From Liolophura sinensis (Eukaryota > Mollusca > Polyplacophora > Chitonida > Chitonidae), in assembly GCF_032854445.1 (NCBI RefSeq), contig NC_088306.1:18757764-18821763 (forward strand): a stretch of 64,000 bases of DNA. Direction: 5' to 3'. The notes under the pieces are model-generated. The model worked only from the letters and a program-made list of their open reading frames with translations. It was not told the DNA's origin and made no database searches. The position numbers and the translations under genes were made by a program. Below are positions 43,205 to 63,000 of the stretch, piece by piece. Within the stretch, counting starts at the first letter, position 1; each line of letters opens with the position of its first letter.

Positions 43205-44805
43205 TTGAAGAAGCATTACGTTGTTTGGAGAAGCTTTGGGCTATTTAAAGGAACATTGTGCTATTTGGAAAAACTTTTTGTCTTGTTTAGGAAAGCATTG
43301 TGCCATTTAGAGGAATGTTGTGCCGTTTGCAGGAGCATTGTGCCGTTTGCACAAGCATTATCTTGTTTAGGGTAGCATTGTGCTGTTTAGAGGAACATTG
43401 TGCTGGTTGGAGAAACATTGTGTCGTTCGGAGAAACATTTTGTTGTTTGGAGAAGCATTGTGCCGTTTCGAGAAGAATTGTGCTCTTTAGAGAAATGTTG
43501 TGTTGGCTGGAGAAGTTTGTGTTGTTTAGGGAAGCATTGTGCCGTTTAGAGGAACATCGTGCTGGTTGGAGAAACATTTTGTTGTTTGGAGAAGGATTGT
43601 GCTGTTTAGAGACATATTGTGTCGGTTGGAGAAGCTTTGTGTTGTTAAGGAAAGCATTGTGCAGTTTGGAGAATCATTGTGTTGTTTGGCGAAACACAGT
43701 GTTGTTTTGAGGAGAATTGTGTTGTTTGGGAAAGCATTGTGCCGTTAAGAGAAAAATTGTTCTGGTTGGAGAAGCTTTGTTTTGTTTAGAGAAGCATTGT
43801 GTCGTTTGGAGAAACATTGTACTGTTTGGAGAAGTTTTGTGTTGTTTGGAGAAACATTGTGCTATTTGTAGAAGCAATATGTCGTTTTGAGAAGCATTGT
43901 GTTGTTCGGGGAAGCATTGTCCTGTTTAGAGAAACATTGTGCTGGTAAGAAAAGGTTATGTTGTTTGGGGAAGCATTGTGCCATTTAGAGAAACAGTGTG
44001 TTGTTTGAACAAACATCGTGCTGTTTAGAGAAGAATTGTGCTGTTTGGTGAAGCATTGTGCCGTTTGGAGAACCATTGTGCTGTTTAGAGAAACATCATG
44101 GTGGTTGGAGAAGCTGTGTGTTGTTTAGGGAAGCATTGTGTCGTTTAGAGAAACATTGTGTTGTCTGGAGAAACATCGTGCTGTTTAGAGAAGCATTGTG
44201 CCGTTTGAAGAAACATTTTGTTATTTGGAGAAGCATGGTGCCGTTTGGAGAAGCATTGTTTTGTTTAGGGAAGCATTGTTCTGTTTAGAGAAACATTGTG
44301 CTGGATGGAGAAGCTTTGTGTTGTTAAGGAAAGCATTATGAAGTTTGGAGAATCATTGTGCTGTTTGGAGAAGCTGTGTGTTGTTTAGGGAAGAATTGTA
44401 CTGTTTAGAAAAATATTGTTTTTGGGGAAGCATTGTGTTGTTTGGAGAAACATTTTGTTGTTTGGAGAAGCATTGTGCCATTTGGAAAAGCATTGTGCTG
44501 TGTCAAGAATCCTTGTGCTGTTTAGAAAGGCATTGCATCATTTGGGAAAACATTGTACTTTTCAGGAAAATGTTGTGTAATGTGGAAAAGAATTGTGCCG
44601 TTTGGAGAATTATTGTGCTGTTTAGAGAAACATTGTGGTGGTTGGAGAAGTTTTGTGTTGTTTAGAGAAGCATTCTGCCGTTAAGAGGAATATTCGGAGA
44701 AGTTTTGTGCTGTTTAGGAAAGCATTTGGCTGATTAGAAAACACTGTGTTTCGAGAATCATTGTGCCCTTTGGAGAAACATTTTATTGTTTGGAGAAGGA
44801 TTTAT
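43205..44805. repeat. 20-bp minisatellite, about 80 units
   Basis: 1.6 kb of imperfect 20-bp units of the form TGTTGTTTGGAGAAGCATTG with recurring variants (GCCGTTTGGAGAAG, GCTGTTTAGAGAAACA). Three units equal 60 bp, so translated frames repeat every 20 residues (CCLEKHCAVW-type on plus, NVSPNDTMLLQTAQCFSK-type on minus). These frames end where units slip and lack starts or domains, so they are not called as genes. Confidence 0.95.
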
Positions 44806-45537: not shown

Positions 45538-48500
45538 ATGTTCCCCAGGGACAGAGCACGTGACGTGGACCGCGGCTGGGCCTGGCTTGTTATGCCGGCG
45601 GCAATCCTCGCTCAAATCATCATTGCCGTGTTGTTGTATAGCTTAGGCGTCATACAGATCGTCCTGCTAGACACGTTCGATGAGGGACTGGTGAAAACAT
45701 CCTGGGTACTCAGTATCACTTCCTGTCTCCTCAGTCTACCAGGTAACACGGATTAACTTAGCCATACGCTTAATACATATCTTTTTCTTTCTGTTATTGG
45801 AGTGGATTGTACCTCTATAGCTCCATGGAGATAATTAATGATAGTGACTTAATGAACTTCAATAGACTACATCAGGCATTTGGGATTGGCTTAATTTTAG
45901 ATTGATCTTTACAAATATACAAGATAATCGGTTATTCATCTCCAAACAAATTTAATTCTAAAACCGAGAAACATGTGTTGGAAAAATGTTTAAATAATTT
46001 CTGCTTCGAGCACTGACGGGGTTTTTATTTCTGTGGCCGAGTCGTTAGCGAGCTAGCGCAGCACAATGATTCAGGAGCCTCTCACCGCCTTCCACACAAT
46101 AGTGCGTGAGTGAGTGAGTGTTTGGGGTTTAACGTGGTACTTAACAATTTTTCAGTCACGAAGGAGACCTCAGACACACCATAGTGCTTGCCGCCGTCGT
46201 ATAAATGAAATATTATTGTGACGTAAATCATCAATGTAATAAATAGATAAATCCAATTAGTATACTACAACGATAACTACCAGAGATACATCATCTGAAT
46301 AGGTTTTCCTGCATATGGGCCTAACGTTGTTTTTGTTTCAAAGGTGGACTGAGCTATTGTTTTCTTTCAATAAGGGATGCACACTTCTGTATCATTTCTG
46401 AATCCGTCTTGATTGTGTGCACGTGGAAAGGTCTTGCAGCAACCGGCAGATGGTTAGTGGGTTTCAACGGGGCTACTGTCCTGTTTCTTCTCACCACAAT
46501 GCTGGCCGCCGTCGTATAAGTGAAATGTTCTTGAGTACGGCGGTAATTAATTTCATGCTTTCTTAGTTCTTTGGTATTTTATTTTGAGCTTTGTTTTGTG
46601 AATTGGCCTTGCAACTATTGACGTGAAACGTCAACTTTGGTTGACAATATACGATAATGTCTGCTTCGAAGCTTACATAACCTGGCCTTCCAATAAACGT
46701 CCAGACAAAGACAGGAGCAAAAGTCTTTTTTATATGCATTAAAGACAATCCCTGGAATGCCATCTTAGATGGATGGTTGCCGTCGTATAGGTGAAATATT
46801 CTAGAGTACGGTGTAAACACCAATCAAATAAATAAATACCGTTACCGTTGTAGGTCCGTTCATTGGATTCTTGACAAACATGACCAGCTGTAGAACGACC
46901 ATGATGCTCGGCAGCCTCCTCATCTTCATGGGCTGTACATCCAGTGCATTTGTCACAAGACTGGACCACCTGTACGTCACTCTCTCCCTAATGACAGGTG
47001 AGGAAATCAGCAGAAACCAAGGGGAACATTAATCTAAAACATCACTTTCTCCTTAATGACAGGTTAGATAGAAACCAGAAACCAAAGGGAAGATTGATTT
47101 GAAATATCACTTTCTCCTTAATGGCAGGTGATGTAGTCAGCAGAAACCTACGGAACCCTTAATCTAAAACATCACACTGTACTTAATCACAGGTGGTGTA
47201 CTGAACAGAAACCAAGGTGAACATTAATCTAAAACATCACTCTCTCTATAATGTCAGCGTAAACCTGCGAAAGCTTTAATGTAAAACATCACACTGTACT
47301 TAATCACAGATGGGGTACTGAGCAGAAACCAAGCTGAACATTAACCTAAAATATCACTCTCTCCTAAATGACAGGTGAGGTAGTCAGCAGAAACCTACAG
47401 AAGCCTCCTAATCTAAAACATCACACTGTCCTTATTCATAGGTAGGGTACTGAGTAGAAACCAAGGTGAACATTAATCTAAAACATCACTCTCTCCATAA
47501 TGACAGGTGAGGTAGTCAGCAGAAACCCACGGAAGCATTAATTTAAAACATCACATTGTCCTTAATCACAGGTGGGGTACTGAGCAGAAACCAAGGTGAA
47601 CATTAATCTAAAACATCACTCTCTCTATAATGTCAGCGTAAACCTGCGAAAGCTTTAATGTAAAACATCACAGTCTCCTTAATGGCAGGTGGTGTGCTGA
47701 GCAGAAACCAAGGTGAACATTAACCTAAAATATCACTCTCTCCTAAATGACAGGTGAGGTAGTCAGCAGAAACCTGCGAAAGCTTTAATGTAAAACATCA
47801 CACTGTGCTTAATCACAGGTGGGGTACTGAGCAGAAACCAAGGTGAACATTAATCTAAAACATCACTCCCTCTATAATGTCAGCGTAAACCTGCAAAAGC
47901 TTTAATGTAAAACATCACACTGTGCTTAATGGCAGGTGGTGTACTGAGCAGAAACCAAGGTGAACATTAATCTAAAACATCTCTCTCTCTATAATGTCAA
48001 CGTAAACCTGCGAAAGCTTTAATGTAAAACATCACACTGTCTTAATCACAGGTGGGGTACTGAGCAGAAACCAAGGTGAACATTAATCTAAAACATCACT
48101 CTCTCTACAATGTCAGCGTAAACCTGGAAAAGCTTTAATGTAAAACATTACACTGTCCTTAATGGCAGGTGGGGTATTGAGCAGAAACCAAGGTGAAGAT
48201 TAATCTAAAACATCACTCTCTCTATAATGTCAGCGTAAACCTGCGAAAGCTTTAATGTAAAACATCACACTGTCCTTAATCACAGGTGGGGTACTGAGCA
48301 GAAACCAAGGTGAAGATTAATCTAAAACATCACTCTCTCCTTAGTGATAGGTGAGGTAGTCAGCAGAAACCTTGGGGAAGATCAGTCTAAAACATCACTC
48401 TCTCCTTAGTGACAGGTGAAATAGTCAGCAGAAACCAAGGTGAACATTAATCTAAAACATCACACTGTGCTCAATGATAGGTGAGGTAGTCAGCAGAAAC

Positions 48501-51500
48501 CTACAGAAGCCTAATCTAAAACATCACACTGTCCTTAATCACAGGTGGGGTACTGAGCAGAAACTAAGGGGAACATTAATCTAAAATATCACTTTCTCCA
48601 AAATGACAGGTGAGGTAGCCAGCAGAAACCTTGGGGAAGATCAATCTAAAACATCACTCTCTCCTTAGTGACAGGTGAAATAGTCAGCAGAAACCAAGGT
48701 GAACATTAATCTAAAACATCACACTGTGCTCAATGACAGGTGAGGAAGTCAGCAGAAACCTACAGAAGCCTTATCTAAAACATCACACTGTCCTTAATCA
48801 CAGGTGGGGTACTGAGCAGAAACCAAGGGAAACCTTAATCTAAAACTTCACACTGCCCTTAATAACATGTTGTGCACTGAGCAGAAACCAAGCTGAACAT
48901 TGATCTAAAACTTCACACTGACCTTAATCACAGGTGGGGTACTGAGCAGAAACCAAGGTGAACATTAATCTAAAACATCACTCTCTCCTTAATGACAGGT
49001 GAGGTAGTCAGTAGAAATCCACGGGAGCCTTAATCTAAAACATCACACTGTGTTCAATGACAGGTGCGGTAGCCTCCAGAAACCCACGGGCTTGATAGCC
49101 TAGAACATCACCATGTCCTTATTGTCAGCTATGTAGAGAACAATTTTCAAAGACCTTTTAATCTAAAGCCTCACCCCTGTCCTTAATGTTAGCTAAGGTG
49201 AGGGAAAAGCTCACATTCCTCTTGGTCCAAATGATCTCTGAAGGTGACATTTTATTATTATGACGTCACACACTCGATACCAAAAAACGGGGCATGAAAA
49301 CCAGAGCACTCATTACTGAAGTCTCGTTTTCGACAAAAGATTGTAATCAATACCACTTTAAATTTGTACGTCTTCATTGAAAATGGAATTTATCTGTTTT
49401 GCAGGCATGGGTGCGAGCATGGTATATACACCTTGCTTGGTGGTTATAGGGTTTTACTTCGACAAGTATCTGAGCGTGTCCATTGCTTTAGTTGTCACGG
49501 GTGGAGGAATTGGTATGGTAGCTGGGGCTCCGCTAATTGGATTCTTCGAGAATGTTTTCGGCTGGCGTGGGATGTTTATGATGTTGGCTGGGATTAGCGC
49601 CAATCTGATTCTCTCCGCCATGATCTGCCGACCGAATAGCGTGGAGAGGTCCCATTGGGGAAATCGTGCTGATGATTCCGACCCTTCAGGAGCCCTCAAG
49701 GAGAAACCATCTCTGGATGACCCTCCTTCTGCGCCGGGGTCTCGCTGGAAGAAAACGATCAAAACTTCTCTGAAAGTCGTTCTTAGCGTGCCTATGCTTT
49801 TGTTTTGCAGCAGTATTTTTCTGTGGAGTATAACCATATCATTGGTGAACCTGTATTTACCCAGCTACGTGGTGTTCAACGGAGCCACCATGACACAGTC
49901 TGCGCTTCTCTTCACCGTCATGGGCGTCTGTAACATTGTCTCGCGACTTCTCGCGGGATTTACCGTGGCCTTCGTGGACAAGTTTGTTTTATACTCTGCT
50001 TCCTTTGCCGTAATGGCCGTGTTGGTGACAGGGTTTCCCTTCATTCCTCCCACTTTCACAATGTCCATGGCATTTGCGGGTTTAATGGGACTGTGCACAG
50101 GAGGACCTTACGTAGTGTTGACGTCAATGACGAAAGACTTGGCCGGACTGGCGCACCTTGCCACAGCCTTTGGCATCGAAATGATGGTATCGGGAACTGG
50201 CTCCTTGATAGGACCTCCTGTGGCAGGTAAAAATCCCAAGGCTCTATTTGCATTTGTTGTCTTCTTGCATACCGTTATGGTTTTTAAGAATCACTTGGAA
50301 GCAACCTCTGTATGGCAAGGCTTTGTTTCCATTTTGTCCAGTCATACTACTGACTGCGATGTTTTGAGTGAAAAAGTGGCGTGTATGACGTTAAACGAGA
50401 CATATCAAATAATCCAATACGTGGGAAGGTCTGACAGCAGCCTGCGGATGGTCCTGGGTCTGTACCCGGTTTCCACCCACCATAATGCTGGCCTCCGTCG
50501 TATAAGTGAAATATTCTTGAGTACGGCGTAAAACACCAATCAAATAAATATAATAATCCATTATTTCTCTTTAGTCACAATCATTTTTTTTTGGTGTATT
50601 TCAGCTCTCTTGGCTGAGTCTTCTGGGTCTTACCTGTGCAGCTTTGTGTTTGCAGGTAAGTTAAAGACGTATCATAATGACGGCGTGATTCCAGGACATA
50701 AAATGGCCATGTGCATTGAGCAAAATGAGATGGTGTGTTAATCGGTTCTATAACTGCTGCCTTAAAACTAAAGTGTTACCTTTAACACTGTAAAGATCAT
50801 GAGGAGTGATTGCTTTCTTAAACTGCGTTTGAAGTGGCGATTTAAAGAGTTGGAATGTGAATGTGTCGCACTTCGGCTAGTGTTAAAACATTAACACTTT
50901 ATAGATGTGCAGTCACTCCTAATGATCTGTATAGTGTTAAATGTAACACTTTAGTTTTGAGAGTGTAGTGTTTGCGCTGGCATTGACGAAGTCAGTAGGA
51001 CGTGTCTGAATCCACTGGCCGCCATGTTGCCTGGTATTATCTATCAGCAAACTTTTCAGAAATTTAGTTTTCTGTCCGACATGGGCCGAGTCGTCCCCAG
51101 GACCGCCCTGAGGAAATGAACTTGGGGTTGTGTATTTGAATCCATCTCTTTCTACCTGGTTTGGTATTTTAGGTCAGGAGCTTTTCCAGGTACCTGTGAG
51201 TTTCTATATCAGGCACTGCTCGATTTCTTTATCCAATAATGGAATGGTATCAGCGAAATATTCTTTAGTACTCCCACACCAACAAAATCCCAACCAAGTA
51301 GAAAAGTTTCCCCGGACTATAATTTTCGTATATTAAGCGAAAGTATAAGCTGGTTTGCCTGTGTCTGTGAACTGAGACCAACCACCATCGTGTAAATGGA
51401 AAACTATTCAATGTGGTCGGAGACAGCAGAATAGTCTAAATGTGGCTTCAATTAAGTTCATAACGTCCAACAGCTAGACCCGCTTGCGCAAAGAGATTGC

Positions 51501-52307
51501 ACCTACAGTCGATTGTAGACCCTACAGTTGAGTTTACAGTTGATTGTGAAAATAATTTGGGTCGCTTGCCCAAAAGTATTGTGAGGCGATTGTAATTTTT
51601 TGAAGTTACAATCGCGATACCAAATTTGACTCGTACATTGACAATGTCAATGACTTTTGTTGCCTTCTTTTCCAGTTCTACATCATAATGATTCAGCAGC
51701 TAGCAACAACAACAACATGTGAAAAAATGTTCGTAACATCTTTTTATGACAATTTTACATTGCACATCAAGTCGAGTTGAAAAGTACTAACTAACAGTTT
51801 ATCTAAAGCAAATATTTGTACATAAAGTTAATTTTAGGGCGATTGTAAATATTTACAACAGGGTGGATCCGATTGTAATTTCTGATTGTAAGTTACCACT
51901 ATCGTAGCTTACAACCCTTTGGTGCAAGAGGGTGTCTACTGTAAGCTACGATCGAGATCTTTGTACAATGAACTTATGCCTACGATCCCTTTGTGCCAGC
52001 GGCCTTCAGTAGAGAATTAGCAGCTCTAGTAGTTGGATGATAAGGCAGCCTAGAGCAACCATTTGTCTTGTCTGTTGCAGGTATCTCCTGTGCATGTAGC
52101 GCAGTCTTGGGTTTCGTTCTCATCAAGTTCAAGCACCCCACGGACGTCGCGGAGCTAGACATTAACAACCCGGAGTGTGTAAGCCCTCCCCATTCGCGGC
52201 CCAGCAGTGTGCTATACGCGAGCCAGTTGTCTATACCAGGAGTTCCGTCCCCTTACCTCGAAATCAGATCCAGAACTGTCCAACTGCAAGTTCCCAGCGC
52301 TGATTAA
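45538..52307 (+). CDS. Monocarboxylate-transporter-like (SLC16/MFS) protein, five exons
   Basis: Spliced from 45538-45742, 46854-46997, 49405-50226, 50605-50655 and 52081-52307. All introns are GT-AG and phase 1, giving 1449 nt or 482 residues, the usual size for SLC16. The N-terminus has DRGWAW before helix 1, matching the SLC16 motif [DE]G[GS][WF][GA]W except R for G. Exon 2 opens with GPFIGFLTN; exon 3 has GFYFDKYLSVSIALVVTGGG and FGWRGMFM, typical of MCT helices 4-6, then a hydrophilic loop (SVERSHWGN to SRWKK) and helices 7-11. Exons 4-5 give the last helix and a tail ending QVPSAD. About twelve membrane helices are expected. SLC16 proteins move monocarboxylates or related solutes across the plasma membrane; the substrate here is unknown. 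Intron 2 is a tandem array; intron 4 holds two TIR elements. A paralogue is at 60025-63469. Confidence 0.93.
46029..46255 (+). mobile_element. SINE-A copy interrupted by a SINE-B-type tail (intron 1)
   Basis: Head GTGGCCGAGTCGTTAGCGAG and CAGGAGCCTCTCACC, then at 46106-46168 a plus-strand GTGAGTGAGTGAGTGTTTGG / TTAACAATTTTTCAGTCACG block of the SINE-B type. SINE-A then resumes at ACCATAGTGCTTGCCGCCG to an AATAAATAGATAAAT tail. Confidence 0.85.
46421..46545 (+). mobile_element. SINE-A, truncated copy (intron 1)
   Basis: ACGTGGAAAGGTCTTGCAGC to GAAATGTTCTTGAGTACGGC; the tail is missing. Confidence 0.85.
46773..46838 (+). mobile_element. SINE-A 3' end, next to the exon-2 acceptor
   Basis: TGGTTGCCGTCGTATAGGTG to AATCAAATAAATAAAT. 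The tail ends 15 bp before the exon-2 boundary, so the SINE lies in the branch-point/pyrimidine region. Confidence 0.88.
46976..49190 (+). repeat. Tandem array copying the exon-2 splice donor (intron 2)
   Basis: About 2.2 kb of units of about 65 bp, often alternating with about 52-bp units to give a 117-bp higher-order period. The first unit includes the last 22 bases of exon 2 and the true donor (CTAATGACAG then GTGAGG). Later units keep TCACTCTCTCCTTAATGACA followed by GGTGAGG or GGTGGGG and AACATTAATCTAAAACA. More than twenty units retain an AGGTG core resembling a 5' splice site. Confidence 0.95.
50419..50556 (+). mobile_element. SINE-A, 5'-truncated copy (intron 3)
   Basis: TACGTGGGAAGGTCTGACAG to CACCAATCAAATAAATATAA, within the 378-bp intron 3. 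It ends about 48 bp before the exon-4 acceptor. Confidence 0.92.
50764..50958. mobile_element. MITE-6 (TIR element, intron 4)
   Basis: 195 bp with about 47-bp inverted ends: AAAACTAAAGTGTTACCTTT / AACACTGTAAAGATCATGAG at the left and their complements (AATGATCTGTATAGTGTTAA, GTAACACTTTAGTTTT) at the right. Few mismatches, no coding capacity. Confidence 0.85.
51481..52000. mobile_element. MITE-7 (diverged TIR element, intron 4)
   Basis: The left end CGCTTGCGCAAAGAGAT pairs with the right end ATCCCTTTGTGCCAGCG. Inner repeats around GATTGTAATTTTTTGAAGTT and GTAAGTTACCACTATCG also mirror each other. It ends 80 bp before the exon-5 acceptor. Confidence 0.6.
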
Positions 52308-52348: not shown

Positions 52349-52497
52349 CATTTATTTATTTGATTGGTGTTTTACGCCGTACTCAAGAATATTTCACTTA
52401 TATGACAGCGACCAGCACGATAGTAGGAAGAAACCGGGCAGAGCCTGGTGGAAACCCACGACCATCCGCAGGTTGTTTGCAGACCTTGCCACATACC
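52349..52497 (-). mobile_element. SINE-A, truncated copy
   Basis: Starts 41 bp after the SLC16 stop: ATTTATTTATTTGATTGGTG to CATCCGCAGGTTGTTTGCAG. It may lie in the 3' UTR. Confidence 0.9.
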
Positions 52498-60024: not shown

Positions 60025-63000
60025 TTAATCAGCGCTGGGAACCAGCAGTTCGACAGTTCTCGGTCGGATTTCGAGGTAAGGGGACGGAACTCCTGGTGTA
60101 GACAACTGGCTCGCGTACAGCACACTGCTGGGCCGCGAATGGCGAGGGCTTTTACACTCCGGGTCGTAAATGTCTAACTCCGCGACGTTCCTGGGCTGCT
60201 TGAACTTGATGAGAACGAAACCCAGGACTGCGCTACATGCACAGGAGATACCTGCAACAGACGTTACAACTGGTGGTTACAGACTTCTGCATCATCTAAC
60301 TACTAGAATGGTTAATACTCTACTGTAGGCATCTGTTGGGCATTACGAACTTGGTTGAACGAAAACAAGGCTGCATTCAGGCAAACCTATCATGTCTTAT
60401 CCAATCAAATCGCCCCCAAGCCGTTCAGAGATTTGAATAACATGATGTCTGAACAATGACGTGCTCAGGGAAAAATTAATACACGTATGAGTGCCCGATG
60501 ATTAAACGTCAATCTACATATTTAACTCTTCGTGCATTTCCATAAATATTGCCATCTCCACCGAAAGTGTGTACCGGTACTTAATTAATTGGTAAAAAAA
60601 GTCAAACCCGCTAGACGTATGGGTTAGTAATCGTTATATAGCGTTGTAAGGGAAAGACCACTTAGATACGATCTGATTTCATTTCTTCTTTGAGTTGTCT
60701 GGTGTTCAATGTTTCATTTATCTTGTGGGAATATTATTGTTGGAACCCACCGCACTTCGCTAGGTACAGGACAAAGGCTCCGACTGTAAGCCGCACCCAA
60801 AACAGAGGACGCTGGATGCGATACGTGTATAAACCAAGACGGTTATCATCTCATTTGATTTGTGGTACATGCGGTACAAAATACAGTTTGTTTTGCAGAA
60901 TCTTCCTGTTTCTTTGGGCTTTGGTTTTTGTCGTTGTACCCAAGAATATTCCACTTATACGATCGTGCGTTGAATTATTGGTGGAGGAAACCGATGCAGC
61001 TACCTGACGACCTCCTGAAGTACAACACCAGCCGATTTCGGCATGTCTGAGTTTGTGCCCTTATTTTTTATACTGACACCTGCATAATACCAGCGATACT
61101 CGTATTTACCCAATAGAACTGCAACATTTCAGCCTGCTAGCGAGGTTATGTATATCTTTTACTTCTACATAATGGAAGAATGGGGTCATTCATTTTGGCT
61201 TCGCTTTCATTGTAATTTTTTTTTTTCAAAAGAGGTCTTAAGGGTAACAAGTCGTGTTGACATCTCTCATTTCTCAGTCCTTACATATCTGGATCGCGAA
61301 CATAATTAATAAACCACCTCAAATATGTGACGTGTGGGGTCAATGATACTTTACACGTCGCATGTGGTTATAAATGAACACGGCCGAAGTAGTGATCTGA
61401 GTGACGTTTGACCTGTCACGTCACGTTGCACGTGAAGGTTGTCGTGGTCTACGTAATAGAGTGTGGACATCAGGGAGCAAAAGTGAACATGGCCTTTGTA
61501 ACATTTCCACACGGTGTTATTCTTACCCGAAGCACACATAATTCATTGTGAAGGCAAACTATGGGCATGTTATAGGCATGTTAACATTGAAGAAACAAGC
61601 TGTTTAGAGCATCAAATTACGAAATAAAAGGGCTAGACACCTGGTACCTGCAGGCCTAAATATTCCTCCTATAGTTTGCAAATCCGTCGGGTGTTTGTGT
61701 ATTACTAACATTAGTATAATACAACAAGATATAGTCAAAAAGGTACCCGCTGTAAACCAATCAGTAGGCGAGGGTCCGCCAGTCATGACATAGAACGTAA
61801 TTGGGCAAGGACTTGTCGTGTGTGGAGAGCGGTGCCGTGGACGACTCAGTAGGCGAGGTTCCATTCCATTCATGACGGAAAGCCATACTGATCAAGTATG
61901 ATGTTGAAAGCGGTGCCGTGGACGACACAGTATGCCAGAATCCCCCCCCCCCCATCTACCCCCCAAGTCATGACAGTCATTGATTATTATGATGTGCAGA
62001 GGGGAACGGACAAAAGCCCCGGTGGACAAAAAGCCTCACAGAGCTTTTGTCCTGGATTCTGTACAAAGCGGTGCCGTGGTCGATACAGTACACGAGGGTT
62101 CCTTCAATCATGACAAGGAGCCAAGCAGGCTACCTGAATAATTTCAACTTGGCGGCCAAGAGTTTCAGCTCTTGCTTTTGCCAGATTATAGATTAGTAAA
62201 GAGGCTCACACGTAACCTGTGAAATACCGCCTCTTGTCAGTTTACCTCAGTTACCATTTTATTCTAACTATTCATTTAAAAAGTTGCAAATTATACAGCC
62301 CCTCGCACCATGGCTAAAGCTGAACTAGGTAAAGAAAGATACAGCGATGGTACATCACTGGTCGAGAATTACTCAAAATGCTATGTCGTCATTATATTTA
62401 ACATACAATCACATTAAAACGATGCAAAGGGGACAGGCCTCGGGGATGCTTAGCCCACCAGCAGGATTCTGGTGCGTGCAGGAATACAATACAACTAAGA
62501 CGTACAGCATAGAGAGAAAAAATAGAGCAGCGACGACAGTGTGATAGCTGGCAAATGCTCACACGTAACCAGTGAAATTTACCTTGTGAATTTACCTCAA
62601 TTACAGTTTTATTATATCTGTGAATGTAAATGCATATGTCTCTTAATAAACGTCGCCCATTTTGTTTTCAGTAAACAAACCGTCATTTAAGCCCGGCGCA
62701 CACGAGAGCTATGTGCTTAGCAAAAACTTCATTCGTCGCACTTTCCTTAAGCAACTAACTCTGGTCTGCGGTCAACTTTTCCGTAAGTTTTTGCCTTTTG
62801 TGGAGGTGTGCCAATATCTAACGTGTTTGATAATTTCTTTTATTTGTGCATTATGTCTTGCCGTGTGTGACGAAAGAAAGCTATTTCCTTTCAAGCGTTT
62901 CCATGTCACATGATCTGCAATATGGCGGTCCACAACGACATGATAATAGCAGACGACCAAAGCCGACATCTGTGTGTTATGAATATAGAAATGCAAACAT

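Follow-up and report, generated by a model that had tools for sequence, protein, structure and literature searches.

A donor-straddling minisatellite repeats the 5' splice site through intron 2 of an SLC16-like gene in Liolophura sinensis

We analysed a stretch of 64,000 nucleotides from the genome of the chiton Liolophura sinensis (contig NC_088306.1, positions 18,757,764 to 18,821,763, forward strand; hereafter the window). An SLC16-like gene on its plus strand harbours a tandem array of 36 units of ~65 nt (46977-49235, + strand) which spans the end of exon 2 and most of intron 2 and repeats the 5' splice site of that intron. The true donor lies in the first unit and is followed by 25 decoy AG|GT sites, and an AG acceptor is retained in 33 of the 35 later units. 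The array is probably a neutral minisatellite that was seeded across the donor, one of several such arrays in this genome and with most of its units dual-specific, in that the same AGGT scores both as donor and as acceptor. An earlier sequence-only reading had described the array and taken it for a field of competing donors. Its observation is confirmed with the corrections given below and its main interpretation is replaced by that of a neutral minisatellite. Two points go beyond it, namely the acceptor present in most units, and the genomic copies, paralogue and other arrays which explain this one.

An array that starts across the exon 2 donor

The gene consists of four plus-strand exons that splice without a break into an intact reading frame of 465 amino acids (aa): the coding part of exon 1 (45538-45742, donor CAG|GTAACA), exon 2 (46854-46997, 144 nt, ending in ...CTCTCCCTAATGACAG), exon 3 (49405-50226, acceptor TTTTGCAG) and exon 4 (52081-52307), inside which the stop codon lies. 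The protein matches Pfam MFS_1 (3.9e-28) as well as the solved chains of MCT2 and MCT1, the best match being MCT2 (3.1e-24). This MCT-related MFS sequence with its intact frame bears out the proposed membership in the SLC16 / monocarboxylate transporter family.

Intron 2 (46998-49404, 2407 nt, phase 1) begins at the true 5' splice site (46998-47003), which reads GTGAGG after CAG with 46998 as the first intron base, and ends with 49404 as the last. Unit 1 of the array is made of the final 21 nt of exon 2 and 44 nt of intron. The array is in phase with the exon 2/intron 2 junction, as had been noted before: its units include the exon end and the donor, and the real junction is the one in the first unit. 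The final codons of exon 2 (LYVTLSLMTG|MG) align to LYLTMGFITGLG of MCT2, which means that the coding sequence in the exon half of unit 1 is old.

Thirty of the 36 units are 63-67 nt long. The other six measure 52 nt and have lost the donor through a 13-nt deletion around it. The last two units (u35-u36) are degenerate, and the array end at 49235 was fixed by unit length. Alternating unit types give rise to a higher order of 130 nt, with maxima of unit identity at even lags (~85% between units two apart versus ~73% between neighbours). Elsewhere in the window the unit had no real match (a single match of 12 nt, E 0.37), and a search of the 609-Mb genome, which skipped very common words, found it at five related loci only (5 candidates scored). 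A dispersed satellite touching the exon by accident was rejected on these grounds.

Donor copies within the array

Splice sites were scored by pairing with the U1 5' end and by rounded position frequencies, and the weakest real sites of the gene served as the bar. More than twenty later units had been credited with a CAG-GTGAGG or CAG-GTGGGG core. This count was too high, as exact CAG|GTGAGG occurs in 6 and CAG|GTGGGG in 8 of them (14 exact); AG|GT, however, is kept in 25 later units. Of these 25 decoys, 24 reach the U1 pairing energy of the weakest real donor of the gene (background: 7887 other GT sites of the window) and 19 reach its matrix score, while unit u31, which reads AT|GT, fails both bars. 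By matrix score the 25 decoys rank in the top 0.03-4.8% of GT sites in the window and thus not below background, a level that would have counted against the earlier interpretation; the decoys are strong sites by this measure. GT sites whose matrix score reaches that of the weakest real donor occur at 10.2/kb in the array versus 1.24/kb in the rest of the window, counting both strands, and the antisense strand of the array holds 2 of them in all.

Six decoys share the 9-mer CAG|GTGAGG of the true donor and its U1 energy. Site sequence therefore gives the first donor no advantage over the best others, and the earlier suggestion that U1 prefers the first site finds no support in it. Reading on from the true donor indeed meets TAA after 11 codons, and joining a decoy to exon 3 leads to a stop after 127 aa in 25 of 25 cases. 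As had been predicted, simple use of a downstream decoy would thus truncate the protein. Among unit-to-unit pseudoexons, 0 of 300 were both in frame and stop-free.

Unit acceptors and dual-specific sites

The idea of a competing-donor field overlooks an acceptor and a branch-point-like site in most units. The end of exon 2, CTCTCTCCCTAATGACAG, itself resembles an acceptor. All 33 AG sites retained in later units score at least as high as the weakest real acceptor of the gene, a site that is itself weak (top 19% of AG sites in the window), and 22 of the 33 fall in the window's top 5%. Most units possess a pyrimidine tract and a branch-point-like TTAAT or near match ~30 nt upstream of AG|GT. The branch-point rule was passed by 21 of the 25 decoys versus 708 of 6900 background AG sites. 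Both donor and acceptor scores were passed by the AGGT of 19 of the 25 decoys, which are thus dual-specific, and 18 of the 25 passed the donor, acceptor and branch-point rules together, versus 4 of 447 AGGT sites elsewhere in the window. The juxtaposed 3' and 5' splice motifs of a recursive ratchet point are present at AG|GT; a very long intron and a conserved AG|GT are not, the intron measuring 2407 nt and the core not being extra-conserved.

Judged by these motifs, each unit may represent a 65-nt GT...AG mini-intron whose removal would restore CAG|GT. Since the units carry donor and acceptor, a run of whole units begins with GT and ends with AG, and a product retaining whole units could therefore in principle be spliced again. 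As none of the 300 unit-to-unit exons is both in frame and stop-free, the cell must succeed often enough either in this clean-up or in keeping strictly to the first donor.

Copies, paralogue and age of the array

A tail-to-tail paralogue lies next to the gene. Its last exon is found at 60028-60258 (- strand), and its exons 1-3 with a short array lie just outside the window (L011). This gene pair is present twice on contig C12 (plus genes at 18680919 and 18804663, minus genes at 18702918 and 18823013), 120-124 kb apart, and part of the plus gene is also found on contig C145. The doubled pair represents a segmental duplication or a retained haplotype.

The second plus copy (L009, same contig, 124 kb away) has exons that are 99-100% alike and an array of 38 units, which is 130 bp, or one unit pair, longer. 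In the third copy (L010, on the 89-kb contig C145) an N gap lies inside the array after 27 units; an extra 117 bp, again one unit pair, sit at another place than those of L009. Intron 2 of the paralogue (synonymous divergence, dS, 0.427) spans 604 nt and contains four recognisable units, of which the last has been cut down to 44 nt. A further unit with AA|GT follows as the fifth, and then decayed sequence. This array is in the same phase, and its flanks are partly alignable. As the diverged paralogue shares it, the array predates the duplication that separated the two genes.

The intron is older than the array, since distant family members share its position: by eye, AG|G occurs at the same codon in 7 of 9 readable plus-strand distant members (one of the other two is without an intron there, one without a clear reading), a count that left out 9 minus-strand members. 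We therefore rejected the idea that the array newly created the intron; the intron end and the start of exon 3 are, by eye, also unlike the unit. A copy of an interspersed repeat is located just before exon 2 in both paralogues and probably predates their split.

Selection on exons and on splice cores

The ratio of replacement to synonymous substitution rates (dN/dS) came to 0.186 when exons 1-3 were compared with those of the paralogue, and to 0.106 against L009 (6 synonymous and 2 replacement changes). This purifying selection indicates that the exons behind the array are translated and that the true junction is used.

Selection for regulation found no support in the donor cores. When the donor core was ranked among windows of the unit, 21 of 57 nine-column windows were lower than the core (22 of 57 lower or equal in a second computation), and for the four AGGT columns 9 of 62 windows were as low or lower. 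Between L009 and this copy, changes were found at 3 of 234 core sites versus 28 of 1897 other array sites, and between the C145 copy and this one at 1 of 162 versus 15 of 1365. Selection on donor cores was thus not found in this gene: neither in conservation nor in the rate of change between copies do the cores stand out from the remainder of the unit. As far as tested, neutrality is shown: the splice core of this gene is without extra conservation.

Donor arrays elsewhere in the genome

The spread of a donor site by a tandem array had been called unusual. It is a recurrent kind of event in this genome, and uniqueness was rejected because CAG-GT arrays recur across it. Three CAGGTAAGT spaced 40-70 nt gave 405 matches versus 101 for the reversed motif, three CAGGTGAGT gave 598 versus 62, and three CAGGTRAG gave 3386 versus 626. 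Unit families were counted by eye among the matches listed (~100 places each). We obtained 16 families for CAGGTAAGT versus 4 for its reversed motif (C1 to C3:24.1 Mb) and 29 for CAGGTGAGT versus 5 (C1 to C2:26.2 Mb), with a homeobox array that contains both motifs excluded from the latter control. Single CAGGTAAGT sites number 9807 versus 4849 for the reversed motif, a 2.0-fold difference, and of the first 100 single places ~58 were clustered (3.8 Mb) versus ~41 (8.8 Mb). The excess of donor-motif arrays over the reversed motif is suggestive only.

We read upstream of 13 of the 16 GTAAGT families (all but L055, L069 and L070; in L058 and L062 the array starts further upstream than the donor read) and of the first 6 of the 29 GTGAGT families plus one chosen by eye. 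The first donor is exactly where an exon of a known protein family stops in 3 of the 16 GTAAGT families (SMAD MH2, 8.9e-11; GH31, 3.5e-13; FAH, 4.5e-14, with Pfam slightly below its cut-off) and in 2 of the 6 GTGAGT families (OGDH, 1.8e-19; ABCC, 1.6e-15, no Pfam hit). The same holds for the homeobox exon picked by eye (2.6e-23), which makes six other exons of known protein families that end at the first donor of unrelated arrays. Three more of the 16, L059, L060 and L064, show an acceptor and an open frame but gave no family hit, and L059 and L064 had none in solved structures either. L082 has an exon-like stretch with a donor ~130 nt before the array, the arrays of L081 and L085 fill nearly all DNA examined, and L083 shows earlier copies.

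The exon share of the unit, by eye, ranges from 5 nt (SMAD) to ~51 nt (homeobox), which indicates that break points vary. In the homeobox array (L087, C1:92960250-92961180, extending to ~C1:92962136) the units copy ~51 nt of the homeodomain end plus the donor. Among ten arrays at C1 0.5-2.94 Mb, taken from the matches listed, inspection by eye, with no family search run, found 0 in which a sense exon adjoins the first donor. Among them, L076 and L077 show exon-like sequence on the other strand and L080 lies within an array whose other strand resembles leucine-rich repeats (both by eye), while in L075 and L079 the array itself was not captured. That all CAGGTRAG arrays are donor-seeded was rejected on this count.

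The window contains 14 arrays with a period of at least 20 and at least 3 copies in its 64 kb. Provided that this density is representative, and assuming 100,000-200,000 donors, ~900-2600 donor-straddling arrays would be expected by chance, so that neutral seeding suffices without special seeding.

Comparison with known systems

The closest precedent is human IFI6 (6-16), whose minisatellite was reportedly presented by Turri et al. in 1995 as a source of multiple splice donor sites. IFI6 units are short (12 bp) and add amino acids in frame. No such addition was found here, as every decoy extension runs into a stop. The units are 65 nt long, and most of them include sequence of an acceptor and a branch point as well. 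A closer analogue of IFI6 is the GH31 array of this genome (L057, C1:26352300-26353650), the 39-nt units of which leave the frame open across the 71 codons covered; decoys there would thus add residues, as reported for IFI6, in this case as 13-residue repeats. Two downstream repeat units of IFI6 are reported to serve as donors and to give rise to three mRNA species (PMC4526556). The likeness lies in minisatellite units bearing splice donors, which in our case are predicted from sequence.

In the UBC tandem array the same AGGT acts as donor or acceptor, which lets whole units be removed in any number; the proposal made for it is that splicing out the insert could ease the harm of repeat expansion (PMC10809524). 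Our array likewise is a tandem repeat with dual-specific AGGT, as predicted from scores. UBC units are coding, in frame and 228 nt long, whereas here the array resides in a pre-existing intron and no tested retained unit gives a good protein. Dual-specific sites and the UBC case (PMC10809524) offer the best frame for the tolerance of such repeats. Recursive splicing at ratchet points shares the juxtaposed acceptor and donor around AG|GT and the restored donor (PMC8605326, PMC6110457); unlike such points, the present array has a short intron, 52-65-nt spacing, many copies made by duplication and, for this gene, no sign of selection. Repeats in tandem at exon-intron boundaries have also been described to alter gene structure (PMC2812944), and introns to be gained when a duplicated AGGT segment yields GT...AG (PMC4974935). 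In contrast, the intron described here is older than the array, and no new intron arose from exon alone. The literature searched, which lacked most subscription journals, yielded no report that treats donor-straddling arrays as a class.

Origin and tolerance of the array

We consider the following course of events probable. A 65-bp segment across the exon 2 donor (21 nt of exon, 44 nt of intron) would have been tandemly duplicated within the existing phase-1 intron before the gene and its neighbouring paralogue separated. The array would since have come to ~36 units here and ~4-5 recognisable units in the paralogue, with unit-pair variation of the kind that unequal exchange or slippage gives. 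The splicing machinery would define exon 2 by its own acceptor and the first donor. A splice that joins the true donor to the acceptor of a unit would restore a donor, and a whole-unit leftover of a wrong choice would be a potential intron and still removable. The gene would thus stay functional because of exon 2 recognition together with the dual-specific CAG|GT copies. Other genes of this genome, which is rich in minisatellites, have repeatedly undergone the same kind of event at their donors.

A competing-donor field would instead imply frequent use of decoys, regulated or noisy, with some transcripts directed to nonsense-mediated decay and array length tuning expression. It would fit the U1 pairing of 24 of the 25 AGGT decoys, the early stop in all 25 extensions, the lack of any in-frame and stop-free pseudoexon among 300 and the different array lengths of the copies. 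Yet core conservation does not exceed that of the rest of the unit, the coding exons are under purifying selection and splicing could in turn remove most decoy extensions, and we regard this explanation as unlikely. It is distinctly improbable that the intron is normally removed unit by unit, as a ladder of recursive steps each restoring CAG|GT. The TTAAT-like branch point ~30 nt upstream, the pyrimidine tract and the AG|GT of most units would permit such steps, with 18 of 25 decoys passing the three rules, but the recursive sites known in flies are reported to sit in introns of great length, whose segments almost all exceed 1 kb (PMC6110457). Here the segments span only 52-65 nt in an intron of 2.4 kb, the cores show no selection and the donor is deleted in 6 of the 36 units.

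Donors might also be favoured as minisatellite seeds beyond chance, for example through transcription-linked breakage. The 45 donor-motif families versus 9 reversed ones in the same stretches (16 v 4; 29 v 5), among the matches listed, point in this direction, while single GTAAGT sites differ only 2.0-fold from the reversed motif. These families were counted by eye, however, some arrays lie away from exons (the 0 of 10 on C1, by eye), and the chance density is enough; we consider such a bias quite unlikely. An assembly artefact is hardly credible. It could be suspected from three near-identical copies in one assembly, one of them from an 89-kb contig and interrupted by a gap within its array, but substitutions set the copies apart, as do whole unit pairs at different positions, and the diverged paralogue possesses the same array in short form.

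Several points weigh against a neutral, splice-tolerated minisatellite. The donor actually used and any splicing from unit to unit are here predicted from sequence. Growth in this gene and shrinkage in the paralogue both fit the array sizes. In the paralogue, positions -8..+6 appear more conserved (column permutation p 0.03-0.04) and -3..+6 gave p 0.08, with 3-4 units and windows picked by the analyst; we take this as a weak hint contra pure neutrality. Synonymous divergence from the paralogue is unusually low in exon 2, where 2 of 33 sites have changed; for exons 1 and 3 together the count is ~90 of 248 (Fisher p 2.5e-4). This could reflect splicing constraint or gene conversion. A splicing constraint on exon 2, if present, could help the first donor to win. 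The exon junction complex is reported to suppress regenerated splice sites (PMC8605326), which would limit the clean-up of leftover units. Furthermore, a length of 65 nt may lie close to, or even under, the lower size limit of introns in this species.

We speculate that splice-transparent minisatellites form a genome-wide class that persists in essential genes, in which CAG|GT symmetry makes whole-unit errors removable, transcripts are cleaned unit-to-unit or recursively and introns lengthen by donor copying. This generalisation is possible, though we hold it with more doubt than confidence. Spliceosome choice among identical 5' splice sites is usually studied in built constructs. The present arrays offer a natural series, with near-identical copies of 36 and 38 units, a gap-cut third copy and a paralogue of ~4-5 units, with coding selection in the tested pairs and with six other conserved genes that carry unrelated donor arrays. 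They also show a plain way in which introns can lengthen without destruction of the gene.

Other features of the window

A second array, of ~74 copies of a 20-bp unit and with strong strand skew, lies at 43205-44682 and ends ~0.9 kb 5' of the start codon. A short interspersed repeat gave many BLAST matches across the window (46423-46542, 46779-46838, 50418-50572, 52350-52496 and many others), and a run of 200 N bases is located at 1095-1294.

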